DNA of 64,000 nt. Origin: Ruegeria aquimaris. GTDB lineage: Bacteria; Pseudomonadota; Alphaproteobacteria; Rhodobacterales; Rhodobacteraceae. Made by a program: the position numbers and the translations under genes. Positions 16,011 to 32,078 of the stretch are shown in pieces. Location of the stretch: the NCBI RefSeq assembly GCF_025751555.1, contig NZ_JAOWLB010000001.1:248001-312000 (forward strand). The letters are read 5' to 3'. The notes below the pieces were generated by a model. It did no database searches and was not told the DNA's origin. It saw only the letters and a program-made list of their open reading frames with translations. The first letter of the stretch is position 1; each line of letters opens with the position of its first letter.

Positions 16011-16028
16011 TAGTTTACCATTAAACTA
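16011..16028. promoter_or_regulatory. Palindromic operator upstream of lpdA (TAGTTTA-N4-TAAACTA)
   Basis: Perfect 7-bp arms around CCAT, 33-50 bp upstream of the lpdA start codon. The same arms and spacing occur at 32061-32078, 25-42 bp upstream of pdhA. Identical placement before two functionally linked genes points to a shared regulator, whose identity is not known. Confidence 0.75.
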
Positions 16029-16181
16029 ATTTTCAAACGACTTCAATGACAGCGTTCCGCGACAAATTTGACGCAGGGGCACCCAGTGAACCCGTCATGG
16101 TCGAGCCTATACGCTTGGGTCCGGTTTCGCTAGAACTGCATGGTAAGGAACGCGTTCCATCCCCAAGCCGAGGTTTTGACA

Positions 16182-16589
16182 ATGAAGACGCTGAAAGACC
16201 TGGTCCTTGCCCTGATCAACGCGACGCTGATCCTGGTGGCGCTGTGTCTGTTCCTGGGCTGGCAACTGATGTCCACGGTCGACGGCATCACCGACCGCCT
16301 GTCCGAGAGCATCCAGAGCTTCGCGCCGGTGCGCGACGAGGTCGCGGGCCTGCGGGCCGAACTCTCCGGCTTGCGCGCCGACATCGCGGCTGCGGGTACG
16401 CAAGGGGTGCCGGTGACCCGCGTCGAGGCCCGGCTGGATGCGATCGGGACGCGGCTGGATGAGATGCAGACCCGGATGGAGCAACTGACCGCCCTGCCCG
16501 ACCGGCTGATCGACACGGCGATGGAAACGGCCGCAGACAAGTTCGCCCGCGGCCTGTCCGAGATCAGAGGCTGCGAAACCGCCTCCTGA
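16182..16589 (+). CDS. Single-pass membrane protein with coiled coil
   Basis: 135 residues from the ATG at 16182 (GAGG 9 nt upstream; a further in-frame ATG at 16140 lacks a site). A transmembrane span covers about residues 6-28 (LVLALINATLILVALCLFLG). A long heptad-patterned region follows (AELSGLRADI to RLDEMQTRMEQL), typical of a coiled coil. No known domain. It is convergent with the DUF924 gene, 5 bp away. Confidence 0.65.
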   Translation: MKTLKDLVLALINATLILVALCLFLGWQLMSTVDGITDRLSESIQSFAPVRDEVAGLRAELSGLRADIAAAGTQGVPVTRVEARLDAIGTRLDEMQTRMEQLTALPDRLIDTAMETAADKFARGLSEIRGCETAS

Positions 16590-16594
16590 CCCTA

Positions 16595-17176
16595 TCAGCC
16601 AGCGGCGGCCTGCAACCGGCGCACAGTCGCACCATAGCCGCCATTGTCGACATAGGCGTTTTCCTGATCCGTGCTGTGCCGTTTAAGGGCATGGTTGCGA
16701 TAGGGGAAGCGGCCGAACTGGCGGATCACCTCGCGATGCGCGCGGGCGTGCAGCAGGTTGGAAGGTCCGGACGCCGGCATCCGCTCGCACATCAGACGCA
16801 CACAGCGTTCCTGGTCGCACAGGTTCTCGGAATGCATCATCGGCAGGTAGAAGAACTGCCTTGCGGGCTCGTCGATCTTCATGTCCCAGCCCTTGTCCAC
16901 CGCGCATTTGGCCGCCATCAGCGCCGCGCGATCGGTCTCGAAGGCCCGACCCGAGCCGCGGAACATGTTGCGGGGAAATTGATCCGTGAGGATGATGTAA
17001 GCCAGAACACCGCTGGGATAGGTCAGCCACAGCGAGAAGCGGCCTTCGGCGGCGGCCTCCCACGTGGGCAGGAACCTTGCCCGGATACGGGCGTCCAGCT
17101 CTTCGTCCTGGATATACCACCCGTCCGGACCGGTTTCGTCCAGCCAGAACTTCAGAATGTCTTCGGGGCCGACCAT
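16595..17176 (-). CDS. DUF924 family protein
   Basis: 193 residues. Family hallmarks seen are FWLDETGPDGWY near the N-terminus, LTDQFPRNMFRG at about 65-76, and FYLPMMHSENL followed by FGRFPYRNHALKR. The fold is an all-helical TPR-like domain of unknown function. GGAGAGAGACCT precedes the ATG at 17176; the seven extra residues of the longest frame are unlikely. No operon partner. Confidence 0.85.
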   Translation of the reverse strand: MVGPEDILKFWLDETGPDGWYIQDEELDARIRARFLPTWEAAAEGRFSLWLTYPSGVLAYIILTDQFPRNMFRGSGRAFETDRAALMAAKCAVDKGWDMKIDEPARQFFYLPMMHSENLCDQERCVRLMCERMPASGPSNLLHARAHREVIRQFGRFPYRNHALKRHSTDQENAYVDNGGYGATVRRLQAAAG

Positions 17177-17294
17177 AGGTCTCTCTCCACCCTCCATTTT
17201 TATCCCCAGCTACTTGGGGATTAAACGATATTTTACAGTTTTGTTACAGTAAAGTTTTGCAACATAGCGACATGAAACAAGGGGAAAATGCCGA

Positions 17295-18557
17295 TTATTG
17301 CGACTCTGATCCGGTTTGACTGGCCTCGTGTGCCGCTTCCTGCGCCAATTCCACCGCCACCGGCGAGGCGGTTGGATACATGTATGCGACGCTACCGGTT
17401 GCCTCGATCGGGGTCGAGGCGCGCTGTGTTGCCCGATAGGCGGCATAGGCGGCCGTTGCGAACATCAGCGCTGCGATGAAGATGAAGAAACCCGGAGGTC
17501 CAAACACCCCATCCGACATCAGCCAGCCAGTGGTGACCGGCCCGGCGATGGCGCCCAGACCGTTGATGAACACCAGCCCGCCCGAGGCGGCGGGCATGTC
17601 GTCATAGTCGAGATAATCGTTGGTATAGGCGATGAGCAGCGAATAGAGCGGATTGGACAGGCCGCCGATGATCAGCGCCGCCACCAGCAGCAACTCGAAC
17701 CGCTCGCCCATGATCGCGCCCAGCATCGCGCCACCGCCACCGATCAGAGCCACGAACAGGATCAGCACCCGCCGGTCCATCCGGTCGGACAGCCAGCCCA
17801 GAGGGTACTGGAGGAACAGCGCGCCGACGTAAAACGTGGCGATGAAGATCGACAGTTGCGTCAGGGTCAGCCCCACCTTGGCGGCATAGACCGCGCTCAT
17901 CCCGAATTGGGCCGAGAACACGCCTCCAAGAAGCAGCATGCCGACGCAACCCAGCGGCGAGGTCTTCATCAGCGCCCTGAGGCTCATCGGCTTGGTGCTG
18001 TCAAAGGCGGGGGTCGGCGAGATCGACAAGAGGATCGGGCCGAAGGAGATCGACACCAGGATCGAGGCGATGATGAACGCCTCGTACCCGCCGGGGTCAC
18101 CCACCTGGATCAGGCCCTGCGCCACGATGATGCCGGTCACCTGCACGATCATGTAGAGCGACAGCGCCTTGCCCCGGTTGGAGTTGTCGGCGGCGTTGTT
18201 CAGCCAGCTTTCGGCGGTGACGTAGACGCCGGAGAAACAAAAGCCGATGATGACGCGCCCCAGCATCCAGGCATAGGTGTCGGGCAGTACGGGATACATG
18301 ATCATCACCGCCGAGATGAACGAGGCCAGCGCCGCGAAGACGCGCACATGGCCCACCCGGCGGATCATCTCGGGCGCCATGCGGGACCCGCCGAGAAAGC
18401 CCACGAAATAGGCCGACATGACAAGCGACATCTCGAAGGTCGAAAACCCCTCGATCTCGCCACGCACGCCGAGCAACGTGCCTTGCAGCCCGTTGCCGAC
18501 CATCAAGAGGCCGATCCCCAGAAGCAGCGCCCATGCGCTGGAAAGAACCTGAAGCAT
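17295..18557 (-). CDS. MFS transporter (YcaD-like)
   Basis: 420 residues with about 12 hydrophobic spans. It starts with MLQVLSSAWALLLGIGLLMV and has the GSRMAPEMIRRVGHVRVFA loop after helix 2 and the QYPLGWLSDRMDRR loop between helices 8 and 9, the two repeats of the MFS loop motif. The C-terminal 40 residues are hydrophilic. Substrate unknown. The start is placed at the ATG at 18557; the longer frame runs through the intergenic gap and into queA antisense. Confidence 0.85.
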   Translation of the reverse strand: MLQVLSSAWALLLGIGLLMVGNGLQGTLLGVRGEIEGFSTFEMSLVMSAYFVGFLGGSRMAPEMIRRVGHVRVFAALASFISAVMIMYPVLPDTYAWMLGRVIIGFCFSGVYVTAESWLNNAADNSNRGKALSLYMIVQVTGIIVAQGLIQVGDPGGYEAFIIASILVSISFGPILLSISPTPAFDSTKPMSLRALMKTSPLGCVGMLLLGGVFSAQFGMSAVYAAKVGLTLTQLSIFIATFYVGALFLQYPLGWLSDRMDRRVLILFVALIGGGGAMLGAIMGERFELLLVAALIIGGLSNPLYSLLIAYTNDYLDYDDMPAASGGLVFINGLGAIAGPVTTGWLMSDGVFGPPGFFIFIAALMFATAAYAAYRATQRASTPIEATGSVAYMYPTASPVAVELAQEAAHEASQTGSESQ

Positions 18558-18661
18558 TCGTCGTGACCTTCGATGGAGCAGGGCGGAGCCTGTGTGAGAA
18601 AATGGCGGCAGCGGGCCGGGTCTGTCCACGCCAAAAGCGGCGGGGCTGCAACCGTTAGCGT

Positions 18662-19711
18662 CTAGCCGGGCAACAACAGGGACGCGTCCCCGTAGGAAAA
18701 GAAGCGGTACCTGTGCTCGACCGCATGGGCATAGATGCGGCGGATGCGCTCCTGCCCCATCAGCGCCGAGACCAGCATCAGAAGCGTCGATTTGGGCAGG
18801 TGAAAGTTGGTCATCAGCCCGTCGGTGACCCGGAACCGGAACCCGGGATAGATGAAGATATCGGTCTCGCCTTCCCAAGGCGCGATGTCGCCGCCGCGCG
18901 CGGCGCTTTCGATCAGGCGCAGCGCGGTGGTGCCGACCGGGATCACCCGGCCGCCAGCGGCTTTGGTGGCGGCGATCTCGGCTGCGGCCTCGGGGCTGAC
19001 GCGGCCCCATTCGGCATGCATCCTGTGGGTGGTCACGTCCTCGACCTTGACCGGCAGGAAGGTGCCCGCGCCCACATGCAGGGTGACATGGGTGAAGGTC
19101 ACGCCATGAGCGGCCAGAGCCGCCAGCAGCGGTTCGTCGAAATGCAGGGACGCGGTCGGGGCGGCAACAGCGCCGGAATGGCGGGCCCAGACCGTCTGGT
19201 AATCGGTCTTGTCCTGGGCGTCAGCGGGGCGTTTGGCGGCTATGTAGGGCGGCAGCGGCATGGCGCCTGCCTCGGCCAGCGCGGCGTCGAAATCCTGACC
19301 CGTGAGGTTGAAGCGCAGATAGGCCTGGCCTTCGGCGATACGTTCGGCGGTGGCGGACAGGTCGGTCGAAAAGGTGATCGTTTCCCCGACGTTCAGCTTG
19401 CGCAGCGGTTTGACCAGCGCGGCCCAGGCGCCGTCGGCCTGGGGTTCCAGCAGCGTGACCTCGATCCGGGCCGAGACCTCTCCCTGCGCGCTCTGCCGGG
19501 TGCGGCTGCCGCTGAGGCGTGCGGGAATCACCCTTGTATCGTTCAGCACCAGCCGGTCACCGGGGCGGAGCCACTCGGTCAGATCGGACACGACGGAATC
19601 GGTGATCCTGTCGCCCTCGGCCACCAGCAGCCGCGCGGAGGATCGCGGCCGGGCCGGCCGCGTCGCGATCAGCCCGTCGGGCAGGTCGAAATCGAAATCG
19701 CTCAGTTTCAT
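18662..19711 (-). CDS. queA: tRNA preQ1(34) S-adenosylmethionine ribosyltransferase-isomerase
   Basis: 349 residues, the normal length. It transfers and isomerises the ribosyl group of SAM onto 7-aminomethyl-7-deazaguanine in tRNA to form epoxyqueuosine. Family segments seen: [56 protein letters not shown], and the C-terminal [17 protein letters not shown]. It stands alone between the MFS gene and the AsmA-like gene, on the same strand as both. Confidence 0.96.
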
Positions 19712-19760
19712 GGCCCGCGCCTATAGAGCGCGCCCGCGGCTTTGACCACAGGCAAAGTGA

Positions 19761-22700
19761 TCAGCGGTCGCCGCCCGGCCGGGATGGGCGTGGTTTCGCC
19801 TCTGCCGGTGGCGCCGGGGGCTCGCCGGGCGCGACCGGCACCTGCGGTGCCGGTGCCCGGATCACGTCACGCAGAAAGCCCGGCGCCAGGCCCGACAGCG
19901 GGTTCACATAGACCTGCGGGTTCGCCATCGAACCGGTCAGGGTGTAGTTGAAGCCGATCAGCCCCTCGCCCTTGCGCGTCAGCACGCTGCCGATCCCGTT
20001 GACCAGATAGATCGGAGAGATCGCGCCGCGCAGGTCCAGCGTGTCGCGTTCGGTATCGACGACCCCGTTCATCGACAGGCCGATCGACGGGCCAACGGCG
20101 CTGCTTTCCAGCACCGTGATGGCGGAGGGGCTGAGCCGCATCCGCCCCTCGATCTCGCCAAACAGGATGCCCTGCCCGGACATTTCATCCAGCAGGCCGA
20201 CAAGGCTCATCGCGTTCAACAGCGCCGCCATGGCGGGCGCGTCCTTGATCCGGGTGTTGCGCACACGAAGCTGACCATCGTAGTGCCCCGCGTCGCCGAC
20301 CGGATCGAGCGACAACTGGAAGCTGCCGCCATGGGCCTGGGTTATGATACCGGCGGCGCGGAACACCTGGCCCGCGTCGGCGGAGCTGAGAACCATGCCG
20401 CTGCGGGCGCCACGGGCGATCATCTGGCCTTCGATATCGGCGGATCCGTTCAGCTTGCCGGTGAAGCGGCCCGCCAGACCTCCGGTTGTCGTGAAGGTGC
20501 CGCGCATTCCGGTCAGCGCCAGGGTTTCGCTGATCTGCAACCGGTCCAGCGACACAGCGAGCGCCGGGCCCGGCCCGGCCCCGCCCTGCCCCCCACCGGT
20601 CGAGCCAAAGGTCGCGCTGCGCAGGTCCATGCGCCCGCCCAGAACCGCGATGTCGGGCGCCCGCCCGGCCCGCCCGATCAGGTCGACCGGCACCGCAAGC
20701 CAGTCGGCCAGTTCAAAGGTGGTGAACTGCGCCTTGTCAAAGCTGCGGTCCTCGCGAAAGCTGACCGTGCCACGTGCCCGCAGGCGGGCGGCGTCGATCT
20801 CCAGCCGGTCGACCCTGCCCCCCGCCCCCAGCGTTGCGCCGACAGCCAACCGGCCGGTTTCGGCTTCGGGCTTGACCCAGCCCAATTCGGGAAGTGCCAA
20901 ACGCACGCCCTCAAGATCCGACTGCGCCTCAAGCCGCAGCGGCTGACCGCCACCGATGCCAAGCGTGAACTGCGCCGTCCCGGCACCGGTCACCATGCCG
21001 TCCGGCAGACCCAGACGCTGTTCGCGCACCAGTGCAGGCGACAGTTCGATGCTGCCCGTCACCTCGCTGCGGGCGGCCTCGTCCTGGGCCAGGGGCTGGC
21101 GCCAGCGGACCTGGGTCGGCACCGACCCGAAGAGCCCCTCGCCCCGGAGCGCGATCTGCGTCTGATTGCCGGTCACTTCAAGCCGCCTGGCCGAGACCAC
21201 CGTCCCCGGCACCAGATCGGCGCTGCGCACCTCGTCGATGGTTCCGGCAAGGTGGAACTCCATATCGCCGAGCTTGACCCCGTCGCGCAGCGGCAGGGCC
21301 AGCGTGCCGGCAAGGTTGGCCCGTCCCTCGGCGATGGTCACCGGCAGATTGGCCTTGTCCATGATGCTGAGCGGTGCGCGGTTCAGCAAGGACAGCGCCG
21401 CTGTCACGGACCCGCGTGCTGCGATCCGGGCGATGCCCGGCGCCGCCTTGCGGATACCGATATCGGGAATGATGAAGGAGGTGCCGCTTGCATCGACCGC
21501 GCCACCCTCGTCGGGCAGGATTTGGCCCGCGTCGGCGGTCACCGCAAAACGCCCGCCCAACAGGCTGGCCTGTCCGCGCGCGTTCACCAATGGCGGCAAG
21601 GTCTTGGCAAAGCGGATCTCGGCATCGGCGAAATCGAAATCGGCATAGAGGTCGGGCGGTGCGCCGGGCCTGAGCCTGAGGGCAAGGTCGAGATCGCTCA
21701 ACTCGGCTGTCCGCAGGTTCTCGACCACCCATTCGCGCGGCTTGGGGGCCGCCCGTTCCGGCCAGTAACCCAGCACCTGTGCGGGCGTGATGGCGTCGAG
21801 CTGGGCGTCCAGCGCAAGCTGCCAGCCATCGGGCGCGGCGGTCAGATCACTGCGCAGCAGCAAGGTGCGACCGTCGTCGATGACGTTCATCCGCCCCACT
21901 TGCACCCGAAACGGATTGAGCCGCATCTGAAAGTCGATCTCGGCCCGATCCAGTTCCAGCGGCGCGTCAAAGACATTTGCCGGGTTCACCCGCAGGCCGG
22001 TCAGGCGGAACTGCGCAACCAGACGGTCCAACCGCCCCTGATCGAGGCCGTCGAGATAGGCGTCGCCCTCGGCCTGGGCCGCGCCCCAGGCGCTGTCGAC
22101 CGAGATCTCGGCGAAGCTCAGTTTCTGCTCTGTCGGGAGGTAAGAGAAATAGGTACGCGCCCCGGTAAAGGGGATCGGGCGTGTCTTGGGGTTCGGCTGA
22201 ACCGCACCGGCGCCAATGTGCAATGTCGCCGAAATCGGTGTCAGCGCACCGTCCTCGCCGATGCCGCCGCGCACAGAACCCGAAATCGGCGCATCCAGGA
22301 CCTGAAGCCAGGCCAGCGCCGGCGCCTGCGCGGCGATGTCGGAGGCCGCCACATCGGTGACCGAAATGCCGAAACTTGCGCTTGGCTTGCCCAGGGTCGA
22401 GCTGTAGTTGGCCTCGACCCGGCTGGCGTAATCGCGGCCGCTGAGCACCGAGAATTCGGTCGCCATGCGCATCGCGTCGCTTGTGCGTGTGACCAGCACC
22501 TGGCCGCCATCCAGGGTCCAGGCCCGCCCCTGTTGCAGGTCCTCGTATTCCATCGCCAGCGAACTCACCTCGATCGAGGTGAGGGCCTGAAGCGCGGGGT
22601 TGAGGAAGACATCGTCGAGTTTTTCCAGCACCTGCACCAGCGTCGGCGCCTGCTCAACCGCCGCCTGGCCACCACCCAGCGACAGGGTGAACCGCCCGTC

Positions 22701-23132
22701 GGCGTCGCGGCGCAGGTTGGCATAGGCGCCGCTGAGCGAAATCCGCTTCGGCTGCACCTGACCGCGCAGCAGCGGGCGCATGGCAAGGCTCGCCTCGGCA
22801 TCGCCGAGCCGGGCGATGACGCGCCCCTCGGTGTCGGATAGTTCGACATCGCGCAGGTGCAGGCGCGGCCGCCACCCCTTGTTGATGACAAAGGACACAT
22901 CGCCGAACCGGACCTGCTTGTCACCGAGCAGCGTGTTCAGCCGGGCCTCGACCCGCGCCTTGACCCAGGGCGGCGGCTGCAAGGTCTGGCCTGGGACCAT
23001 AAGCGCCGAAAACGCGGCCAGAAACACCAGCAGAAGCGTGCCGCGCATCGCCCAGACAAGCGTGACCCGCCGCTTGCTGCGGCGCGGTTTCTCCGGTGTT
23101 TTCCGGCCTGATTTGGGTTCGGTGTCTTTCAA
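19761..23132 (-). CDS. AsmA / YhdP-like inner-membrane-anchored protein
   Basis: 1123 residues. A basic N-terminus (KPRRSKRR) precedes one membrane span at about 28-48, then a very long beta-rich periplasmic region with no cysteine clusters, ending in a proline-rich tail. The layout and a C-terminal AsmA-like segment (SLVGLLDEMSGQGILFGEIE, then IYLVNGIGSVL) fit the YhdP/AsmA family. In enterobacteria those proteins bridge the envelope and move phospholipids to the outer membrane. The family assignment is firm; the transport role is inferred. Confidence 0.82.
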   Translation of the reverse strand: MKDTEPKSGRKTPEKPRRSKRRVTLVWAMRGTLLLVFLAAFSALMVPGQTLQPPPWVKARVEARLNTLLGDKQVRFGDVSFVINKGWRPRLHLRDVELSDTEGRVIARLGDAEASLAMRPLLRGQVQPKRISLSGAYANLRRDADGRFTLSLGGGQAAVEQAPTLVQVLEKLDDVFLNPALQALTSIEVSSLAMEYEDLQQGRAWTLDGGQVLVTRTSDAMRMATEFSVLSGRDYASRVEANYSSTLGKPSASFGISVTDVAASDIAAQAPALAWLQVLDAPISGSVRGGIGEDGALTPISATLHIGAGAVQPNPKTRPIPFTGARTYFSYLPTEQKLSFAEISVDSAWGAAQAEGDAYLDGLDQGRLDRLVAQFRLTGLRVNPANVFDAPLELDRAEIDFQMRLNPFRVQVGRMNVIDDGRTLLLRSDLTAAPDGWQLALDAQLDAITPAQVLGYWPERAAPKPREWVVENLRTAELSDLDLALRLRPGAPPDLYADFDFADAEIRFAKTLPPLVNARGQASLLGGRFAVTADAGQILPDEGGAVDASGTSFIIPDIGIRKAAPGIARIAARGSVTAALSLLNRAPLSIMDKANLPVTIAEGRANLAGTLALPLRDGVKLGDMEFHLAGTIDEVRSADLVPGTVVSARRLEVTGNQTQIALRGEGLFGSVPTQVRWRQPLAQDEAARSEVTGSIELSPALVREQRLGLPDGMVTGAGTAQFTLGIGGGQPLRLEAQSDLEGVRLALPELGWVKPEAETGRLAVGATLGAGGRVDRLEIDAARLRARGTVSFREDRSFDKAQFTTFELADWLAVPVDLIGRAGRAPDIAVLGGRMDLRSATFGSTGGGQGGAGPGPALAVSLDRLQISETLALTGMRGTFTTTGGLAGRFTGKLNGSADIEGQMIARGARSGMVLSSADAGQVFRAAGIITQAHGGSFQLSLDPVGDAGHYDGQLRVRNTRIKDAPAMAALLNAMSLVGLLDEMSGQGILFGEIEGRMRLSPSAITVLESSAVGPSIGLSMNGVVDTERDTLDLRGAISPIYLVNGIGSVLTRKGEGLIGFNYTLTGSMANPQVYVNPLSGLAPGFLRDVIRAPAPQVPVAPGEPPAPPAEAKPRPSRPGGDR

Positions 23133-23194
23133 CTTCCCTGCCGCGACCTATTATGCGCGCAACATATCCATGAAACCCTTAGCGGAGTTTTCCT

Positions 23195-23656
23195 ATGCCC
23201 GACATTTCCGATATCGCCCCCGATTTCACGCTGCCCCGGGATGGCGGCGGCGAGATCAGCCTGTCCGGCCTGCGCGGTGGCGCGGTTGTAGTGTTCTTCT
23301 ATCCCCGTGACGATACCCCGGGATGCACCAAGGAATCCATCGGCTTTTCCGACCATCTGCAAGCCTTTGCCGATGCCGGGGCGACGGTGCTGGGCGTGTC
23401 CAAGGACACGGTTGCAAAACATGACAAGTTCGTGGCCAAGCACGGGCTGACCACCGCGATGCTGTCGGATGCCGACAGCGATACCTGCGAGCGCTATGGC
23501 GTCTGGGTGGAAAAGAACATGTATGGCAAGAAATCCATGGGGATCGAACGGTCGACCTTTCTGATCGACGCCGAGGGGCGCATTGCCCGGATCTGGCGCA
23601 AGGTCAAAGTCGACGGCCATGTGGCCGAGGTTCTGGACGCGGTCAAAGCGCTGTGA
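23195..23656 (+). CDS. bcp: Thiol peroxidase of the Bcp/PrxQ family
   Basis: 153 residues. The peroxidatic Cys44 sits in DDTPGCTKES, after FFYPRD. The usual Bcp resolving cysteine five residues later is absent (KESIG), and the only other cysteine is in DTCERYG, so it may work as a 1-Cys enzyme or with another partner. It reduces hydroperoxides with thiol reductant. It shares a 62-bp divergent promoter gap with the AsmA-like gene and overlaps the next gene by 4 bp. Confidence 0.93.
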   Translation: MPDISDIAPDFTLPRDGGGEISLSGLRGGAVVVFFYPRDDTPGCTKESIGFSDHLQAFADAGATVLGVSKDTVAKHDKFVAKHGLTTAMLSDADSDTCERYGVWVEKNMYGKKSMGIERSTFLIDAEGRIARIWRKVKVDGHVAEVLDAVKAL

Positions 23657-24489
23657 GCCTGACGTTGACCGAAATGGCGGTGGAGGTGCTCTCTACCGCC
23701 GACGGGCGTGCCAAGACCGCGTTGTCGCGCCGCCATGCCAGCGCGTGGTTCGCTGCGCGCCGCGGTGAGAGTGAACCGATTGCGGTGGGCACGGCTACCC
23801 CCCCCCTGCATCCCGCCCGGCCCGAGCGGCCCGAATTGCTCAGCCCCCGGGACGTGCCGCGCCGACGCCCGGGGTCTGAGGCTGGGCGCATCGCGCTGTT
23901 GCATGCGGTGGCGCATATCGAGCTGAACGCGGTCGATCTGCATTGGGATATCGTGGCGCGGTTCGGCCATGTACCGATGCCCATCGGGTTTTATGACGAC
24001 TGGGTGAAATGCGCCGACGAGGAATCCAAGCATTTCAACATGGTCTGCGATGTTCTTGAGAGTATCGGCAGCCATTATGGCGCGCTGCCCGCCCATGCCG
24101 GCATGTGGCGCGCGGCCGAGGATACGGCCGAGGACCTGATGGGGCGGCTCGCGGTGGTGCCCATGGTGCTGGAGGCGCGTGGGCTGGATGTGACACCGGG
24201 CATGATCGGGATCTTTCGCAAGGCCGGGCTGTCCCAGGCCGTGGCGGCGCTGGAGGTGATCTATGCCGAGGAGGTGGGCCATGTGGCCTATGGCTCGAAA
24301 TGGTTCCATTTCCTCTGCGGACGCGAGAATGTAGACCCTAAGGATGTGTTCCACGCACTTGTCCGGCGCTATTTCCATGGCGCCCTGAAGCCCCCGTTCA
24401 ACGAAGAGAAACGTGCCGAAGCGGGCCTGCCGCCCGACTTCTACTGGCCGCTGGCCGAAGAGACGCCGACACGGGATCGCCCGGTCTGA
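23653..24489 (+). CDS. DUF455 ferritin-like protein
   Basis: 278 residues. The start is a GTG overlapping the bcp stop (GTGA), so translation is coupled. Ferritin-like helices carry metal-ligand Glu/His patterns: HAVAHIELNAVDLHWD, DDWVKCADEESKHFN, and EVIYAEEVGHVAYG. This is a DUF455 protein, a di-iron-carboxylate-type family of unknown reaction related to MiaE-like enzymes. The fused arrangement with a peroxidase suggests a role in oxidative or iron stress, which is inference. Confidence 0.85.
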   Translation: MSLTLTEMAVEVLSTADGRAKTALSRRHASAWFAARRGESEPIAVGTATPPLHPARPERPELLSPRDVPRRRPGSEAGRIALLHAVAHIELNAVDLHWDIVARFGHVPMPIGFYDDWVKCADEESKHFNMVCDVLESIGSHYGALPAHAGMWRAAEDTAEDLMGRLAVVPMVLEARGLDVTPGMIGIFRKAGLSQAVAALEVIYAEEVGHVAYGSKWFHFLCGRENVDPKDVFHALVRRYFHGALKPPFNEEKRAEAGLPPDFYWPLAEETPTRDRPV

Positions 24490-24667
24490 GCCGGGCGCGC
24501 ATTCCAATCGGCGGATTTTTGCCAAAAAATCAAGCAGCCCCGTGCCGTTTTCGCCCAACCGGTAAACAAACTTGCCCGATCCGTCTTAACCGCTTATGCA
24601 CTCGGGCCAAGGCCCGGCGCCACTCAGCCGGACGGGTCTTGCCGAGGGGACAACAAGGGATGGGCGG

Positions 24668-25996
24668 GTGCGGACACGTCTGGCGATCAAGATACACGCG
24701 TTTCTGGAGCAGCGGTTTCCGGAACGCCGGGTTTTTCTGAAATCCGACAGTGACACACGGTTCATCCGGCTCAAATCGGAAACCCAGATCGTCGCCTTTG
24801 CCGGGGCGACACTGTTTGTCGCCTGGACCATCGTGGCCACCGCGATCCTGCTGATGGACAGCATAGGGTCGGGCAATTTCCGCGAACAGGCGAAACGGGA
24901 CCAGGCCACGTATCAGGAACGGCTGAACGCGATCTCGGCCGAGCGGGACGCCCGCGCCGAAGAGGCGGTGGCGGCACAGCGCCGGTTCAACGCCGCCCTG
25001 GCGCAGATCTCGGTGATGCAGTCGGAACTGCTGGAATCCGAAACCCGGCGGCGCGAGCTGGAAACCGGGATCGAGGTGATTCAGACCACCCTTCGCGCCA
25101 CCATGAAACAGCGCGAGACCGCGCGCGAAGCACTGGCCGCCCTGAAGGAAGAGACCGGAGAGAACGGCGCCGTGCACCTGGCCGCGAGCGAGTTGCCAGC
25201 GCAGATGACTTTCATGGCCCAGGCGCTGGAGCGCACCGCCCAGCAACGGGATCAAATCCATTCCAACGCGCAATCAGCGCTGGCGGCGCGGGCGGAGCTG
25301 GAGCTGGAAATCAAGCTGATGCAAGAGCGCAACGACCAGATTTTCCGCCAGCTGGAAGAGGCGATGACGGTTTCGGTCGAACCGCTGGACAAGATGTTCC
25401 GCGCGGCTGGCATGCCCACCGACAGCATCCTGGAACAGGTGCGGCGCGGCTATAGCGGTCAGGGCGGGCCGCTCACCCCTTTGTCCTTTTCCACCCGGGG
25501 TGAAGAACCCTCGGCGGACGAGATTCGGGCCAATAACCTGTTGCAGCAGATGGATCAGCTGAACCTCTATCGGATTGCGGCGGAGCGCGCGCCCTTTGCC
25601 AACCCGGTCCGGGCCGCCGTGCGATTCACCAGCGGCTACGGCTATCGGCGCGATCCCAAGACCGGCGGCAAGCGCATGCACAACGGGTCGGATTTCGCGG
25701 GCAGGCATGGCACCGATATTTATGCCACGGCCGATGGCGTGGTCGTGCATGCGGGGTGGGAATCAGGCTTTGGCAAACTGGTCAGGATCCAGCACGATTT
25801 TGGAATCGAGACGCTTTACGCCCATAATTCACAGATCCGCGTGAAGGTCGGTCAAAGGGTCTCGCGCGGGGATCATATTGCTGATATGGGTAGCACCGGA
25901 CGGTCCACCGGTACCCACCTTCATTACGAGGTGCATGTCAACGGACGACCTGTTAACCCCATGACTTACATCAAGGCTGCACGCAATGTTTTCTAA
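24668..25996 (+). CDS. Membrane-anchored M23 (LytM-type) peptidoglycan endopeptidase
   Basis: About 442 residues from a GTG at 24668; an ATG at 24596 is a possible but weaker start. One transmembrane span lies at about 42-62, then a coiled coil to about residue 200, then the M23 domain at about 330-425. Zinc ligands are seen as HNGSDFAG (His near 338, Asp near 342) and GTHLHYEVH. It would cut peptide cross-links in the periplasm. Its end overlaps the bactofilin gene by 11 bp. M23 enzyme/bactofilin pairs set cell shape in other alphaproteobacteria. Confidence 0.9.
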   Translation: MRTRLAIKIHAFLEQRFPERRVFLKSDSDTRFIRLKSETQIVAFAGATLFVAWTIVATAILLMDSIGSGNFREQAKRDQATYQERLNAISAERDARAEEAVAAQRRFNAALAQISVMQSELLESETRRRELETGIEVIQTTLRATMKQRETAREALAALKEETGENGAVHLAASELPAQMTFMAQALERTAQQRDQIHSNAQSALAARAELELEIKLMQERNDQIFRQLEEAMTVSVEPLDKMFRAAGMPTDSILEQVRRGYSGQGGPLTPLSFSTRGEEPSADEIRANNLLQQMDQLNLYRIAAERAPFANPVRAAVRFTSGYGYRRDPKTGGKRMHNGSDFAGRHGTDIYATADGVVVHAGWESGFGKLVRIQHDFGIETLYAHNSQIRVKVGQRVSRGDHIADMGSTGRSTGTHLHYEVHVNGRPVNPMTYIKAARNVF

Positions 25997-26504
25997 GAGC
26001 AAAATCAACGAGCCCGCCCCCAAGGCACCCGAGGCGGCAAAACCCGCCACTTCCACGGCCCCCGCTGCGCCCGCTCCGAGCGATTTCAAGCCAGCCGCGC
26101 CCAAGCCAAAGCCGCCGGCATCGGTGCTGTCCTCGGACCTGCACATCACCGGCAACATCAAGACCAGCGGCGATATCCAGGTCGAAGGCTCGGTCGAGGG
26201 CGACATCCGCGCCCATCTGCTGACCATCGGCGAAACCGCGACCATCAAGGGCGAAGTGACCGCCGACGACGTGGTGATCAATGGCCGTATCGTGGGCCGC
26301 GTCCGGGGTCTCAAGGTGCGCCTGACATCGACCGCACGGGTCGAGGGCGACATCATCCACAAGACCATCGCCATCGAGAGCGGTGCCCATTTCGAGGGGT
26401 CGGTACAGCGTCAGGACGACCCGCTGAACCCGGGCCGCGCGGCCAAGCCTGCTGCCAACCCGGCAGCCGCTGCCGCCCCTGCAACCAAACCCGAAGGCGC
26501 CTGA
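25986..26504 (+). CDS. Bactofilin
   Basis: 172 residues. A disordered Ala/Pro/Lys-rich N-terminus (1-45) precedes the polymer-forming beta-helix (about 47-135), with repeats such as GNIKTSGDIQVEGSVEGDI, and an Ala-rich tail follows. Bactofilins self-assemble into cytoskeletal filaments that recruit cell-wall enzymes. The 11-bp overlap with the M23 gene upstream makes that enzyme its likely client. Confidence 0.95.
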   Translation: MFSKSKINEPAPKAPEAAKPATSTAPAAPAPSDFKPAAPKPKPPASVLSSDLHITGNIKTSGDIQVEGSVEGDIRAHLLTIGETATIKGEVTADDVVINGRIVGRVRGLKVRLTSTARVEGDIIHKTIAIESGAHFEGSVQRQDDPLNPGRAAKPAANPAAAAAPATKPEGA

Positions 26505-26542
26505 AGCCGAAAACGGCCAGCCGGTCTGACAGGGACAGTGAG

Positions 26543-26574
26543 GCGTCGCGGAAGACATTCCGCGGCGCTTTTTT
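26543..26574 (+). terminator. Intrinsic terminator after bactofilin
   Basis: Stem GCGTCGCGGAA / TTCCGCGGCGC (one G-T pair), 4-nt loop, then six T. It ends the bcp - DUF455 - M23 - bactofilin strand. Confidence 0.9.
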
Positions 26575-26588
26575 GTGCGAGGTATGTC

Positions 26589-27551
26589 TTACCGGCCGAG
26601 CATCCATGTTCCTTGCGGCCACAGGGCGTGAAACGCAAAAGCGAACATCACGTCATGGGGCAGATCCCGGCCTTGGGCGTCCTGTACCCGGACCGACCCG
26701 ATATCCCGCCCCATGCCGATCTCTTCGGTATCCAGCGCCGAGGCCACTCCCTGTTCCCAGCTCAGCGTGACCTCTGCCTCGGTCAGGCGCCTGGCCCTTG
26801 CCAGCCGCTCCAGCGGCCAGGCCCGGTCCGCGACCCGCACGACCCGCGCCAGCGGCGCGATGCCGTGAGGTGGCGGCTCTCCTGAATAGAGGAACGGACG
26901 GCTGGCCGTGTCATACCCCCGATAGGGATTGCGCCCGTAGGGCCGGGCGTGGTCCGGTTCGGCCATGACCAGGCCATCTGGATTGCGGCTACGGAAAGCG
27001 TCCAGGCTCTCCATCCAGCCCGGCAGAGCCGCCAGCCGCATGCCGGTCAGCGCGCCAACGATGGCGCGGCCTTCGGCCTGCTGCCACCAGCTTTCGGTCT
27101 CGCGGTCATACATCACCATATCCGAATTGCGCAGCTTGCCGGTGACACCGAAGGTGAGGATGCCGTGGTCGGTGCGCCGGTCAAAGATCAGGGCCGAATT
27201 GCACAACGGACAGAAGGTGACGGCATAAGCAAGATCGCCGAGCCGATCGTTCACGATCTCGTGCCAGATCAGGTAGCGGATCGGATAGGCACGCGGCACC
27301 TCGTCAGCCAGTTCAAGCGTGATGACCGGTTCCCGCCCGTTGATGCCGGAAACGGCGGCAACCGGAAGGAAATCCGGGTTGGAAAGCGCCGGTATCCCAT
27401 CCTTCGGCGGCCCTCCGGACAGGATTTCGCCCCAGTTTTCGACAGAGGAACGAGAGAAATCCGTTCGCGGCCATTCGTGGCGCCAGAATTCGGGATCGGC
27501 CGAGGCCGGTACGGTCAGCAGCCAGACAAACAGAGAAACGATCAAGCGCAT
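26589..27551 (-). CDS. DUF3179 domain-containing secreted protein
   Basis: 320 residues. A signal peptide (MRLIVSLFVWLLTVPASA) is followed by the DUF3179 signature RYLIWHEIVND, then VTFCPLCNSALIFDRR with the CPLC motif, and YDRETESWWQQAEGRAI. The family is periplasmic or extracellular and of unknown function; the CPLC pair suggests metal or redox chemistry. It converges on the bactofilin terminator. Confidence 0.88.
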   Translation of the reverse strand: MRLIVSLFVWLLTVPASADPEFWRHEWPRTDFSRSSVENWGEILSGGPPKDGIPALSNPDFLPVAAVSGINGREPVITLELADEVPRAYPIRYLIWHEIVNDRLGDLAYAVTFCPLCNSALIFDRRTDHGILTFGVTGKLRNSDMVMYDRETESWWQQAEGRAIVGALTGMRLAALPGWMESLDAFRSRNPDGLVMAEPDHARPYGRNPYRGYDTASRPFLYSGEPPPHGIAPLARVVRVADRAWPLERLARARRLTEAEVTLSWEQGVASALDTEEIGMGRDIGSVRVQDAQGRDLPHDVMFAFAFHALWPQGTWMLGR

Positions 27552-27637
27552 CGGAGCCTCGGTCAGGACAGGACAAGACCATGATCCCCGGCCAGTGCCG
27601 CTGGTGCCAGTGTCTACACGCGATCGTGAAGACGGAG

Positions 27638-27662
27638 CCCGGGGCCGGAAACCGGCGCCGGG
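27638..27662 (-). terminator. Strong GC hairpin after the secreted cyclophilin
   Basis: CCCGGGGCCGG-AAA-CCGGCGCCGGG, an 11-bp stem with one mismatch and a 3-nt loop, 8 bp past the stop codon. There is no T-run, so termination is possible but unproven. Confidence 0.45.
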
Positions 27663-27669
27663 CAGGAGG

Positions 27670-28215
27670 TCACTTTGTCACCGTGACCGTTTTCATCAGG
27701 TCCGGCTGGCCGATCACCGACCCGTTCGGGCCAGCGCCGCGCTTGATCGCGTCGACCACATCCATGCCTTCGGAGACCTTGCCGACAACGGTGTACTGGC
27801 CATCCAGAAACGGACCGGGGGCGAACATGATGAAGAACTGCGAATTGGCGCTGTTGGGGTCCTGCGCCCGCGCCATTCCCACAACGCCCCGTTCGTAAGT
27901 GATGTTCGAAAACTCGGCCGGCAGATCGGGGCGGTCGGAGCCGCCGCGCCCGGCCAGCCGCATGTCGCCACCGAGACGTCCGTACTGGACATCGCCGGTC
28001 TGGGCCATGAACCCGTCGATCACGCGGTGAAACACGACGCCGTCGTATTTGCCTTCGGCAGCAAGCGCGGTGATCTGCTCCACATGCTTGGGCGCGACAT
28101 CTTCGAAGAGATCGATGGTGACGGTACCATTGGCCTCGCCCGTCACCTCGATCTTGAGGCCAGTGGCTCCGGCCGGGACGGCCATCAGTGCCAGAAGGGC
28201 GGCGAGTTTATACAT
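27670..28215 (-). CDS. Peptidyl-prolyl cis-trans isomerase, cyclophilin type, secreted
   Basis: 181 residues with a signal peptide (MYKLAALLALMAVPAGATG). The cyclophilin core contains VVFHRVIDGFMAQTGD (active-site FHR), NSQFFIMF and the C-terminal VVDAI segment, all intact. It catalyses proline isomerisation in the periplasm. Its start overlaps the end of the cytoplasmic paralogue by 8 bp, giving a two-gene operon of related isomerases for two compartments. Confidence 0.93.
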   Translation of the reverse strand: MYKLAALLALMAVPAGATGLKIEVTGEANGTVTIDLFEDVAPKHVEQITALAAEGKYDGVVFHRVIDGFMAQTGDVQYGRLGGDMRLAGRGGSDRPDLPAEFSNITYERGVVGMARAQDPNSANSQFFIMFAPGPFLDGQYTVVGKVSEGMDVVDAIKRGAGPNGSVIGQPDLMKTVTVTK

Positions 28216-28714
28216 CTGCTGCTACCTTGACACTGATCATGCGATCAGGGTTCGCGGGCGGCTCGCCGCGGGTGATCGCATCGACATGTTCCATGCCGGA
28301 AATCACCCGGCCATAGACGGTGTATTGGCCATTCAGGAAATGGTTGTCCTTGAAGTTGATGAAGAACTGGCTGTTGGCCGAGTTCGGGTTGGCCGAACGT
28401 GCAGCCCCCAGCGTGCCCCGGTCATGCGGCAGTTTCGAGAATTCGGCCGGCAGGTTCGGCAGCGACGATCCACCGGTCCCCGCCATGCGGATGTTGAACC
28501 CGTCTTCCATGTCGCCATTGGCCACATCGCCGGTCTGGGCCATGAAGCCGTCGATCACCCGGTGAAAGCAGACATTGTCATACTCGCCAGCGCGCGCCAG
28601 CTCCTTCATCCGTTCGGAATGCTTGGGCGCCACGTCGGGCAGCAGTTCGATCACCACATTGCCGTCCTTCAGCTCGACGATGATGGTGTTTTCGGGATCC
28701 TTGATTTCGGCCAT
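28208..28714 (-). CDS. Peptidyl-prolyl cis-trans isomerase, cyclophilin type, cytoplasmic
   Basis: 168 residues without a signal peptide. It has the same core as its neighbour: VCFHRVIDGFMAQTGD, SANSQFFINF and VDAITRGEPP. It is PpiB-like. AGGAGGGCCCG before the ATG at 28714 is a strong ribosome site. Divergent from pgk. Confidence 0.94.
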   Translation of the reverse strand: MAEIKDPENTIIVELKDGNVVIELLPDVAPKHSERMKELARAGEYDNVCFHRVIDGFMAQTGDVANGDMEDGFNIRMAGTGGSSLPNLPAEFSKLPHDRGTLGAARSANPNSANSQFFINFKDNHFLNGQYTVYGRVISGMEHVDAITRGEPPANPDRMISVKVAADV

Positions 28715-28844
28715 CGGGCCCTCCTGTCACGTTGATTGCCGGGAACCTAACCATCGCGCGCGCAATCGACAAGGCACGCCATTGACGGGCGCGCGCATTC
28801 GGGTAGAGAAACGCCCTAGCATTTGATCAGGGAGATTGCGGGAT

Positions 28845-30041
28845 ATGGGCTGGAAGACACTCGACGACATGGACCTGAACGGCAAGCGCGTGCTGGTGCG
28901 TGTCGATATCAACGTGCCGATCGTGGAGGGCGTGGTCACCGACTCGACCCGGATCCGCCGTTTGATGCCCACCGTGCGCGACATCATCGCCGCAGGCGGC
29001 CGCCCCATCCTGCTGGCGCATTTTGGCCGCCCGGGCGGCGAGCGGCGCAAGAACCTGTCGCTGAACCAGCTGGTCCCGACGCTGGAGCGCGCCTTTGGCA
29101 CCAAGGTTCTGTTCGTCGACGATTGCGTTGGCCCCGCAGCCGAGGAAGCCGCCGAAGCACTGCACCCGGGCGAGGTGCTGCTGCTGGAAAACACCCGGTT
29201 CCATGCCGAGGAGACCAAGAACGACCCCGCGCTGGCCGCCGGAATGGCACGGCTGGGCGAGGTGTACTGCAACGACGCGTTTTCCGCCGCCCATCGCGCG
29301 CACAGCTCGACCGAGGCGATTGCGCGCCTTTTGCCCTCCTGCGCCGGACGGCTGATGCAGGCCGAGCTGGAAGCGCTGGAAAAGGCATTGGGCAAGCCGC
29401 AACGTCCGGTGACCGCAGTCGTGGGCGGCGCCAAGGTCTCGACCAAGCTGGAGCTGTTGGGCAACCTGATCGAAAAGGTGGATTACCTGGTGATCGGCGG
29501 CGGCATGGCCAATACCTTTCTGGTGGCCAAGGGCCATTCGGTCGGCAAGTCGCTGGCCGAGCGGATCATGAAGGACACCGCAGCCGAGATCATGGCCAAG
29601 GCCGAAGCCGCGGGCTGCACCATCGTCCTGCCGAGCGATGTGGTGGTGGCCAAGAAATTCGAAAGCCACGCCCCGCACGAAGTGTTGCCGGCGGACCGCT
29701 GCCCCGAAGACGGGATGATCCTGGATGCGGGCCCCGAAAGCCTGACCGCGATCAAGGCCATTTTCGAGAAGAGCCGCACCGTGATCTGGAACGGTCCGCT
29801 GGGCGCGTTTGAACTGGAGCCGTTCGACGCCGCAACAAACGCCGCCGCGCTGAAGGCGGCGGCGCTGACGCGGGCAGGCAAACTGGTATCGGTTGCCGGC
29901 GGTGGCGATACGGTTGCCGCGCTCAACGCCAGTGGCGCGGCGGGGGACTTTACCTATATCTCCACCGCCGGGGGTGCCTTCCTGGAGTGGATGGAAGGCA
30001 AGACCCTGCCCGGCGTCGCCGCCCTGATGCGGAACGGCTGA
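28845..30041 (+). CDS. pgk: Phosphoglycerate kinase
   Basis: 398 residues, the standard length. Seen: the substrate loop VRVDINVPI, the nucleotide-binding [27 protein letters not shown], and the C-terminal GGGDTVAA and [18 protein letters not shown]. It interconverts 1,3-bisphosphoglycerate and 3-phosphoglycerate with ADP/ATP. Start placed at ATG 28845 ([10 protein letters not shown]), three codons inside the longest frame, which opens at a TTG. It stands alone. Confidence 0.97.
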
Positions 30042-30052
30042 GTCTTCCGGGT

Positions 30053-30202
30053 TTACGCCCCGCCCGCCGGGACCTTTTCGGGTCGGATTCCACCGCCATC
30101 CGGCCCGTCGTCGTCCTCGGGCACGAGGGCGCGCCGCATGTCGCCCAGATCCGGGCTGTGCAGCCAGCGCAGGCCCGTCGTCATGAAGAGAAGACGAAAC
30201 AT
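30053..30202 (-). CDS. Possible 49-residue protein coupled to the DUF465 gene
   Basis: A short frame starts at an ATG that overlaps the stop of the upstream DUF465-like gene (TGATG). It reads MFRLLFMTTGLRWLHSPDLG then an acidic, glycine-rich tail. The exact stop/start overlap suggests translational coupling; there is no recognisable domain. It could be spurious. Confidence 0.35.
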   Translation of the reverse strand: MFRLLFMTTGLRWLHSPDLGDMRRALVPEDDDGPDGGGIRPEKVPAGGA

Positions 30203-30450
30203 CACACCCTCCCCAGCTGCTGTTCCGGCTGCGGCCGCATCGCTTCGAGCGTGCGCAGCAGCCCTTCGTGGCGCGCCAGTTCGTCTTTCAGCGTCAGCTT
30301 GCGCCGCTTGAGCATGCGCAGCGTCTGGGCGCAGGGCGCAGGGCGCTTGAGTTCGGTCAGGATGCGCTGTTTCAACTCTGCCCTGCGCTCTTTCAGGACC
30401 GCCATCCTCAGCTTCAGCGAGAAGGCGCGAGCTCTGCTTTTGGCACTCAT
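30202..30450 (-). CDS. DUF465 / YdcH-like small protein
   Basis: 82 residues, basic and helical, with the RRKLTLKDELARHEGLL stretch that resembles the DUF465 (YdcH) family. The function of that family is unknown. ATG at 30450 has GGAGAC upstream on the minus strand. Divergent from the OxyR-like regulator. Confidence 0.6.
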   Translation of the reverse strand: MSAKSRARAFSLKLRMAVLKERRAELKQRILTELKRPAPCAQTLRMLKRRKLTLKDELARHEGLLRTLEAMRPQPEQQLGRV

Positions 30451-30551
30451 AAATGGTCTCCTCCGGTTGCTTATGTGCCGCGATCACGTTGCGGCCTGGC
30501 CCCAAGATGGGGGCGGCGGATCTGGAATGAAGCCAATATCATTATAGATAT

Positions 30552-30570
30552 AGATAGGTTTTTCCTATCT
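30552..30570. promoter_or_regulatory. Palindrome upstream of the OxyR-like gene
   Basis: AGATAGG-TTTTT-CCTATCT: perfect 7-bp arms, 13 bp before the start of the LysR-family gene at 30583. The spacing and AT-rich core fit a LysR autoregulatory site, though this is inferred from position only. Confidence 0.5.
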
Positions 30571-30582
30571 TATGATATCCGC

Positions 30583-31515
30583 ATGCCGCCCGACATCACC
30601 CTGCGCCAGCTCACCTACTTCTCTACCCTGGTCGATGCCGGACAGTATCGGCGCGCCGCCCGCAGCCTTGGCATCAGTCAACCCTCGCTCAGCCTGCAAA
30701 TCGCGGCGCTGGAAAAGGCGGTGGGGGCGCGGTTGCTGGAGCGGCGGCGGAGCGGGCTTATCCTGACCCCCGAGGGCCGCGACGTGTCCGAGATGGTGAC
30801 GCGCATTCTGCGCGAGGTCGAGGCGCTGACGCTCTATGCCAGCCCGATGCGGGACAACATGACCGGCACGCTGCGGCTGGGGTCAACCCCAACCATCGGC
30901 CCCTATCTGCTGCCACGGGTGTTGCGTCGGCTGCACGACCGTTTCCCAGGTCTGAAACTGGCGATCAGGGACGGCGCGCCGCGCGAACTGGTCGAAGATC
31001 TGGCGGCAGGCCGCTATGATCTGATCCTGACCCAACTCCCGGTTGGCCGTGACGACATCCGGGTGGCGCCGCTGTTTCGCGAACCGCTGCACGTGGCGCT
31101 GGACCCGGCGCACCGGCTGGCAGGAGTGACGCAGGTCCGGCAGGCGGACCTGGCAGGTGAAGTCATGCTGAGCCTCAGCTCCGGCTATGCGCTGCACCGG
31201 CAGGTCCAGGCCCTTTGCGACTCCGCCGGTGCGCGGCTGAGCACCGAGTTCGAGGGAACCAGCCTGGACGCCCTGCGCCAGATGGTGTCGCTGGGCATGG
31301 GGATCACGTTGCTGCCGGCGCTCTATGTCGCGTCAGAGGTGCGCGCGACCGGGGCCGATGTCGTCACCCGGCCACTGCGTCCGGCGATGCATCGGAACGT
31401 CGGCCTGGCGTGGCGCGAGGCCAGCGGCACGCCTCTCGCAATAGACCGGTTCGCCGATCTGACCCGGCAGGTGGTCCGCGACGAGATGGGCGGCATCCTG
31501 CACCCCTCAACCTGA
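30583..31515 (+). CDS. LysR-family regulator, OxyR-like but lacking the peroxidatic cysteine
   Basis: 310 residues. The N-terminal winged helix (RQLTYFSTLVDAGQYRRAAR, then SLGISQPSLSLQIAALE) and the substrate-binding domain align with OxyR. In OxyR the sensing pair lies in GHCLRDQALGFC. The corresponding segment here is GYALHRQVQALC: Ala203 replaces Cys199, while Cys212 keeps the position of Cys208. It therefore cannot form the OxyR disulfide and probably senses something else or is unregulated. Start by position of the ATG; no strong ribosome site. A palindrome lies just upstream. No catalase or peroxiredoxin is adjacent. Confidence 0.85.
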   Translation: MPPDITLRQLTYFSTLVDAGQYRRAARSLGISQPSLSLQIAALEKAVGARLLERRRSGLILTPEGRDVSEMVTRILREVEALTLYASPMRDNMTGTLRLGSTPTIGPYLLPRVLRRLHDRFPGLKLAIRDGAPRELVEDLAAGRYDLILTQLPVGRDDIRVAPLFREPLHVALDPAHRLAGVTQVRQADLAGEVMLSLSSGYALHRQVQALCDSAGARLSTEFEGTSLDALRQMVSLGMGITLLPALYVASEVRATGADVVTRPLRPAMHRNVGLAWREASGTPLAIDRFADLTRQVVRDEMGGILHPST

Positions 31516-31635
31516 GGGCCGGTGGTGAGAGGGCTTGGAAAATGAGGGATTCACAAGGCGATTCGGCTGTGCCATACTGCAGCAGCGCATCCGTCAGAGA
31601 TGCGGCCAGAGGCAATAAGACAGCAGGTACCTCGA

Positions 31636-31935
31636 GTGTCCCGTTCCACCAGACCCAGCTTTGGCGCGATGATCTTCTTCGCGGTCTCTTTTGCGCTGGG
31701 GACGTATTTCACCTTCGCGGCGGTGCAGGGCGATTTTGGCCTGTTCCGGCGCGTCGAGATTGCGGCGGAACGGGACATGCTGTCACGCAAGCTGACAGAA
31801 CTTCAGAGCCAGATTGCCCGGATGGAAAATCTCACGCAACGCCTGTCTGACGACTACCTCGACCTTGACCTGCTCGACGAACAGGCCCGCTCGGTTCTGG
31901 GCCTGCTGCGTTCGGACGAAATCGTCATCCGCTGA
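31636..31935 (+). CDS. ftsB: Septum formation initiator FtsB/DivIC family protein
   Basis: About 99 residues. One transmembrane span (GAMIFFAVSFALGTYFTFAA), then a periplasmic coiled coil (RDMLSRKLTELQSQIARMENL) and a conserved end (DEQARSVLGLLRSDEIVI). FtsB links FtsQ and FtsL in the divisome. The start is a GTG at 31636 by length and homology; the frame opens further upstream at 31600. It precedes pdhA, as often in alphaproteobacteria. Confidence 0.82.
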   Translation: MSRSTRPSFGAMIFFAVSFALGTYFTFAAVQGDFGLFRRVEIAAERDMLSRKLTELQSQIARMENLTQRLSDDYLDLDLLDEQARSVLGLLRSDEIVIR

Positions 31936-31945
31936 GGCCGGACTC

Positions 31946-31991
31946 AGGATTTCCACGAAATCCTGTCGCAAAATCTTTGGTAAAGATTTTG
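31946..31991. terminator. Tandem hairpins between ftsB and pdhA
   Basis: Hairpin 1 (31946-31964): AGGATTT-CCACG-AAATCCT, 7-bp perfect. Hairpin 2 (31969-31991): CAAAATCTTT-GGT-AAAGATTTTG, 10-bp perfect with a triloop. The first begins 10 bp after the ftsB stop. They may end the ftsB transcript, or act as an RNA stability element; there is no long T-run after the second. Confidence 0.55.
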
Positions 31992-32060
31992 GCCGCGCAG
32001 CGGCTGACTTCCCCCGCGTCATATTATCCCTCGCCATGGGCACTCAAATGCTCTATTTAA

Positions 32061-32078
32061 TAGTTTAATGCTAAACTA
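32061..32078. promoter_or_regulatory. Palindromic operator upstream of pdhA (TAGTTTA-N4-TAAACTA)
   Basis: Perfect 7-bp arms around ATGC, 25-42 bp before the pdhA start codon. The arms equal those of the site before lpdA at 16011-16028; only the four central bases differ. Confidence 0.75.

Follow-up and report, generated by a model that had tools for sequence, protein, structure and literature searches.

The DNA analysed here is a 64-kb window of the 5.04-Mb genome of Ruegeria aquimaris (G000:C11:248001-312000), and the subject of this work is a palindrome that precedes its genes for the pyruvate dehydrogenase (PDH) complex. The window encodes the E1 and E2 subunits in pdhA, pdhB and pdhC and the E3 subunit in lpdA on the opposite strand, and all four products scored above the cut-offs of their family models (Table 1). 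Perfect copies of TAGTTTA-N4-TAAACTA lie upstream of both lpdA and pdhA. An initial annotation had reported these two sites, their distances from the genes and the absence of any further copy in the window, and all of this was confirmed using the search pattern TAGTTTANNNNTAAACTA with up to two mismatches, which returned the two perfect matches and nothing else. Its judgement that such a pair would be unlikely by chance also holds, as 100 dinucleotide-shuffled window sequences gave 0 matches and the motif recurs throughout the family upstream of these genes. The proposal that two AT-rich palindromes are identical by chance, for which nothing speaks except the shortness of the motif, is already refuted by these observations and its probability is practically nil.

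Scanning the whole genome with up to two mismatches gave three copies in total, each before a central-carbon gene, indicating that the motif is not common. The third copy is likewise perfect and lies upstream of maeB, whose product is a malic enzyme of 757 amino acids (aa) with a phosphotransacetylase-like C-terminal domain (Pfam domains above their cut-offs, NCBIfam PRK12861 below its cut-off). A looser pattern at one mismatch added three genome matches, none of them a perfect palindrome, while its reversed control pattern gave 21.

In related genomes the motif was found before orthologues of pdhA, lpdA and maeB. At ≤1 mismatch it was detected in 149/198 genomes of the Rhodobacteraceae, usually in one to three copies each. 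The targets were assigned for 126 distinct fetched sites, a set that comprises the sites of the listed genomes plus 12 further genomes (11 with four or five sites) and is therefore not random: 38 precede pdhA, 32 maeB and 31 lpdA (101/126). The remaining 25 include two before lipA, encoding lipoyl synthase (the protein of L283 matches TIGR00510 and that of L263 is 86% identical to it), one near a short-chain dehydrogenase gene that we take to be phaB (L274), and several others from AT-rich genomes or the ends of contigs. In a scan of public genomes, 36/121 sites among the matches listed precede a pdhA, lpdA or maeB orthologue; going by the record titles, 35 of these 36 listed sites come from Rhodobacteraceae, Paracoccaceae or member genera, some of which we presume to belong to the family, and one from an unclassified alphaproteobacterium. 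In Shimia litoralis the palindrome stands before aceE, which encodes a homodimeric-type PDH E1, suggesting that the operator follows function. Taken together, pdhABC, lpdA and maeB share the palindrome as a predicted regulon that is common in the Rhodobacteraceae and spans the route from malate through pyruvate to acetyl-CoA. The initial annotation had expected the PDH complex to have one regulator; the shared sites support this, and their reach extends to malic enzyme, which it had missed.

Table 1. Positions of the genes, putative operators and related features (positions without a contig or record name are those of the window)
Feature	Position	Strand	Remark
lpdA, dihydrolipoyl dehydrogenase (E3), 464 aa	14584..15978	-	TIGR01350 above cut-off
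Putative lpdA operator, TAGTTTA-ATGG-TAAACTA	16011..16028	-	read on the - strand (centre CCAT on +); 33-50 bp upstream of lpdA
Open reading frame divergent from lpdA, 149 aa	16140-16589	+	no Pfam match
Terminator-like match	32038-32053		adjoining but not on the pdhA operator
Putative pdhA operator, TAGTTTA-ATGC-TAAACTA	32061..32078	+	25-42 bp upstream of pdhA
pdhA, pyruvate dehydrogenase E1 alpha, 330 aa	32103..33095	+	GTG start; TIGR03182 above cut-off
pdhB, pyruvate dehydrogenase E1 beta with lipoyl domain, 456 aa	33110..34480	+	NF008854 above cut-off
pdhC, dihydrolipoamide acetyltransferase (E2), 439 aa	34493..35812	+	TIGR01349 above cut-off
Putative maeB operator, third perfect copy	C55:52281-52298		26 bp upstream of the malic-enzyme gene
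Candidate marR gene, 145 aa	G000:C30:7170-7604 (L195:1486-1923)	-	contig other than the window's
Sites before lipA	L263:299-316 (G139), L283:1294-1311 (G081)		15-23 bp upstream of the lipoyl synthase gene
Site before aceE, Shimia litoralis	L037:2867-2884		44 bp upstream of the gene
Palindromes before other MarR-family genes	L056:2195-2212, L152:1683-1700, L156:1624-1641		18-62 bp upstream
Pelagibacteraceae records with the palindrome	L040, L058, L059, L061, L094, L098, L106, L127, L131, L133, L137, L140, L148		

The presence of the sites follows that of a gene for one MarR-family protein. Genomes were regarded as near-complete at a completeness of ≥90%, which 175/198 reach (174 with an added contamination limit), and the MarR orthologue was present in 172/198 genomes at E ≤ 1e-15 and in 167/198 at E ≤ 1e-35, the stricter threshold dropping five weak best matches, G125 among them. 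Among near-complete genomes, sites occurred in 132/155 with the orthologue versus 1/20 without it (E ≤ 1e-15; Fisher p = 6e-13, a value that, like the others given for the MarR and CceR profiles, takes genomes as independent and ignores descent). At E ≤ 1e-35 the comparison was 132/153 versus 1/22. In the sole MarR-less exception, G059, both matches lie at no target gene. Among genomes that are <90% complete, sites were present in 7/9 without MarR at 1e-35, and here we assume that the gene falls in missing sequence.

The palindrome also fits the N8 form of a motif that has been assigned to another protein. Network inference in R. sphaeroides predicted the LacI-family protein RSP_1663 (CceR/GapR) at malic enzyme and PdhAB, with the motif [AGT]GTT-N6-8-AAC[ACT] in two clusters by spacer (PMC4344238), so that CceR might bind the operator and the N8 spacing be a variant of its site. 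In a Paracoccus cceR mutant MaeB was lower (PMC11323563), which speaks for this explanation, whereas pdh, lpd and maeB are not among the targets in the GapR regulon as far as it is described in PMC4052901. The Ruegeria genome encodes two LacI proteins (L157, L158), of which L158 is GntR/CceR-like, and the window has no CceR-like N6 site at ≤1 mismatch.

A CceR match at E ≤ 1e-40 was found in 178/198 genomes. When the near-complete genomes were stratified (MarR at E ≤ 1e-35), sites were present in 126/144 with both proteins, 6/9 with MarR alone, 0/14 with CceR alone and 1/8 with neither. Six near-complete genomes thus carry sites with no CceR match, and 14/14 that have CceR but no MarR are devoid of the site at ≤1 mismatch; three of these 14 CceR matches are weak and perhaps other LacI proteins (G017 1e-42, G083 5e-62, G195 4e-41), and G125, counted as MarR-less although its MarR protein is a diverged orthologue, reduces the class to 0/13 when left out. 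The effect of MarR was strong within CceR-containing genomes (p = 1e-11) and weak within those lacking CceR (p = 0.05), while that of CceR within MarR-containing genomes was not significant (p = 0.11). Moreover, G044 (99% complete) has three exact sites and no LacI-family match. These observations make binding by CceR highly unlikely, and MarR is nominated because its gene tracks the sites and separates from CceR.

A pattern of this kind could also arise if the palindrome were bound by some other transcription factor whose losses coincide with those of the MarR gene. Ten of the 20 near-complete MarR-less genomes have either no PdhA match (7, E ≤ 1e-60) or a distant one (3, 39-56% identity), hence the differences in these lineages go beyond a single gene. 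However, G029, G109, G048 and G167, which lack MarR but have a close PdhA (77-82% identity), stand at scattered positions in the PdhA tree, and their best site matches have 6, 5, 6 and 4 mismatches, respectively. That tree has 56 rows, 11 of them without MarR (one of these, G033, only 74% complete), and the pattern requires 9 changes, ≥6 of which are forced by well-supported branches; G109 beside G181, G048 beside G154 and G167 beside G140 are examples. The MarR label was not clearly clustered (98/500 shuffles as low), which fits scattered losses of MarR. The pdhA promoters of 17 genomes were read for the site. Of nine from MarR-less genomes, seven have a best match with 5-8 mismatches, G167 one with 4 and G195 one with 2, the last being a 93% complete genome fragmented in 340 contigs. 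Furthermore, MarR proteins are frequent beside the same palindrome in unrelated genomes: in the other public-scan records, 9/84 proteins beside an exact palindrome belong to this family, among the matches listed. A loose MarR_2 search of the Ruegeria genome gave 43 matches in 5 Mb, by estimate <1% of genes. On this evidence we consider a different factor rather unlikely.

The MarR candidate is a small protein that passes curated cut-offs for PF12802 (39.1 bits, cut-off 27) and PF01047 (27.4 bits, cut-off 24.6), and it exceeds the cut-off of no NCBIfam equivalog; the orthologues in G090 and G172 likewise pass curated MarR winged-helix cut-offs. These two small genomes, both with sites, have two and one MarR_2 matches, respectively, and the same orthologue is present in both. 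The candidate gene lies by genes for a CN-hydrolase and a glutaredoxin and a comF-like gene, with a ubiG-like methyltransferase gene nearby (the comF and ubiG names are our reading), and each of the 34 other orthologue loci inspected keeps one or more of these neighbours. Among the low-scoring MarR matches, G125 keeps the conserved neighbourhood and seven others do not; the location of the G125 protein identifies it as a diverged orthologue. The initial annotation, which could not name the regulator, had stated that it is not adjacent; the nominated gene lies on another contig.

Changes in the protein can be set beside changes in the site. The syntenic orthologues of G101 (L358) and G125 (L359) are both strongly diverged and changed in the wing, that of G101 having 46% identity and the wing sequence RPDEKDRRRK in place of RPDWDDARRK. 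Neither genome has the palindrome at ≤1 mismatch. The G023 orthologue has VQRSAMTN instead of VTRGAMTN as its recognition helix, and the pdhA promoter of this genome carries a perfect variant palindrome, TGGTTCA-N4-TGAACCA, at 4 mismatches from the motif. The G101 and G023 cases would fit co-change of protein and site, and prove nothing.

The shape of the site was assessed by aligning, in gene direction, 133 sites, all picked at ≤1 mismatch, and all motif statistics rest on such sites. Arm changes fell in the downstream arm in 39/47 cases. In the centre, which was not selected, the first base was A in 124/133 sites and the middle step was pyrimidine-purine in 125/133. Such a centre is common in LacI operators and counts in favour of CceR; a LacI-type binder, suspected from this step, was dropped on the CceR profile and on G044, which also has no counterpart of L157. 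The lpdA sites (38) have a conserved TTG 18 bp upstream of the operator, possibly the -35 element, in which case the -10 would fall inside the operator, and the first T of the lpdA-type TTG is kept before maeB (41 sites). Upstream of pdhA (54 sites) conservation is moderate for a CT-GC element and a TA pair, which would put the operator at the transcription start. Either position, over the -10 or at the start, would suit a repressor. The open reading frame divergent from lpdA seems, by eye, to encode a membrane segment and a coiled coil.

A palindrome shortly upstream of a start codon might instead act as an RNA hairpin in the leader. The three copies of this genome do fold moderately, with stems of 7-12 pairs, a four-base loop and energies of -4.7 to -7.6 kcal/mol (fold z-scores -4.2, -4.2 and -1.8), and the conservation of the arm sequence is no argument against this explanation because sites were chosen at ≤1 mismatch. 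Nevertheless, the site is distributed with the gene of a DNA-binding protein, neither window palindrome was called as a terminator in the terminator scan, and, should the TTG of lpdA be the -35, the palindrome would overlap the -10 and not be fully transcribed. We therefore regard a leader structure as very improbable.

Taken together, the palindrome is probably the operator of a pdhABC, lpdA and maeB regulon, and the most likely binder is the one MarR orthologue, which would act as a dimeric repressor at these promoters. Several observations weigh against this assignment. No operator at ≤2 mismatches was found beside marR in 35 orthologue loci and none on the contig of the gene itself, where the best match has 4 mismatches; autoregulation was rejected on these grounds. 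With no site of its own and a position away from the targets, neither autoregulation nor adjacency links the protein to the palindrome, and both facts favour another factor, as does the circumstance that the families profiled were MarR and LacI/CceR. There are also 21 near-complete genomes with MarR (E ≤ 1e-35) and no site at ≤1 mismatch, and eight of their pdhA promoters showed 2 (two promoters), 3 (three) or 4 mismatches (two), with no site in G101. A sigma-70 consensus scan around both window operators returned no promoter, so that the placement at -10 and +1 rests on conserved bases. Finally, the Paracoccus mutant indicates an influence of CceR on malic enzyme in that organism, which may be an indirect effect or a second input.

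Marine Rhodobacteraceae are important consumers of organic acids. Here, we infer a mechanism in which the MarR dimer would sit over the -10 of lpdA and maeB and at the transcription start of pdhA, repressing pdhABC, lpdA and maeB, and would be released by a metabolite signalling that acetyl-CoA is short relative to C4/C3 acids. The steps from malate to pyruvate (malic enzyme) and from pyruvate to acetyl-CoA (PDH) would then be switched on together. As the two enzymes turn malate to acetyl-CoA, their joint control would be sensible on dicarboxylates and pointless on acetate. In its broader form, which on balance we hold to be somewhat more plausible than its negation, a dedicated MarR regulator, an unrelated analogue of PdhR, would switch PDH, E3 and malic enzyme, joined in some species by lipoyl synthase, as a malate-to-acetyl-CoA unit, with its operator also before aceE in Shimia, and it would own the N8 half of the motif published for CceR. 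With a circuit of three operons and one named candidate, the malate-pyruvate-acetyl-CoA node becomes directly testable and, if the proposal is true, a motif in the published network would probably have to be reassigned from CceR to MarR.

The palindrome was also observed outside the regulon. It lies upstream of MarR-family genes in three records not titled Rhodobacteraceae (Table 1), as in autoregulated MarR operons. In Pelagibacteraceae/Pelagibacter, 13/13 records listed carry TAGTTTA-N4-TAAACTA approximately 30-50 bp upstream of a proteorhodopsin-like gene, with the centre AATT in 11, TATA in L098 and ATAT in L137, and with diverged flanks. The encoded proteins share 70-100% identity with the L059 protein, a Bac_rhodopsin match, and these sites may represent a conserved operator for proteorhodopsin in SAR11. 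Among the matches listed, 4/84 proteins beside exact palindromes match RNA polymerase beta-subunit domains.

In the open-licence literature, outside which most subscription papers fall, we found the network-inferred LacI protein and no other PDH regulator in Rhodobacteraceae, in particular none of the MarR family. The proposed system resembles the CceR/GapR regulon in its central-carbon role and bacterial family, and in that malic enzyme and PdhAB were inferred there with an inverted repeat GTT-N6-8-AAC (PMC4344238); it differs in that the N8 palindrome is present in CceR-less genomes and absent at ≤1 mismatch from near-complete genomes with CceR and no MarR. With PdhR, the GntR-family protein of gamma-proteobacteria that serves several lineages as a dedicated regulator of aceEF-lpdA (PMC5343134), it shares the enzyme complex, whereas the protein family is another, the candidate is encoded away from the pdh operon and malic enzyme belongs to the regulon. 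Local MarR repressors of the SlyA/HpaR/FabT/OhrR type are similar in protein size and winged-helix domain, and the same palindrome stands upstream of MarR genes in L056, L152 and L156. In contrast to them, the candidate described here is not beside its proposed targets, has no site of its own and would have a role in central carbon metabolism.

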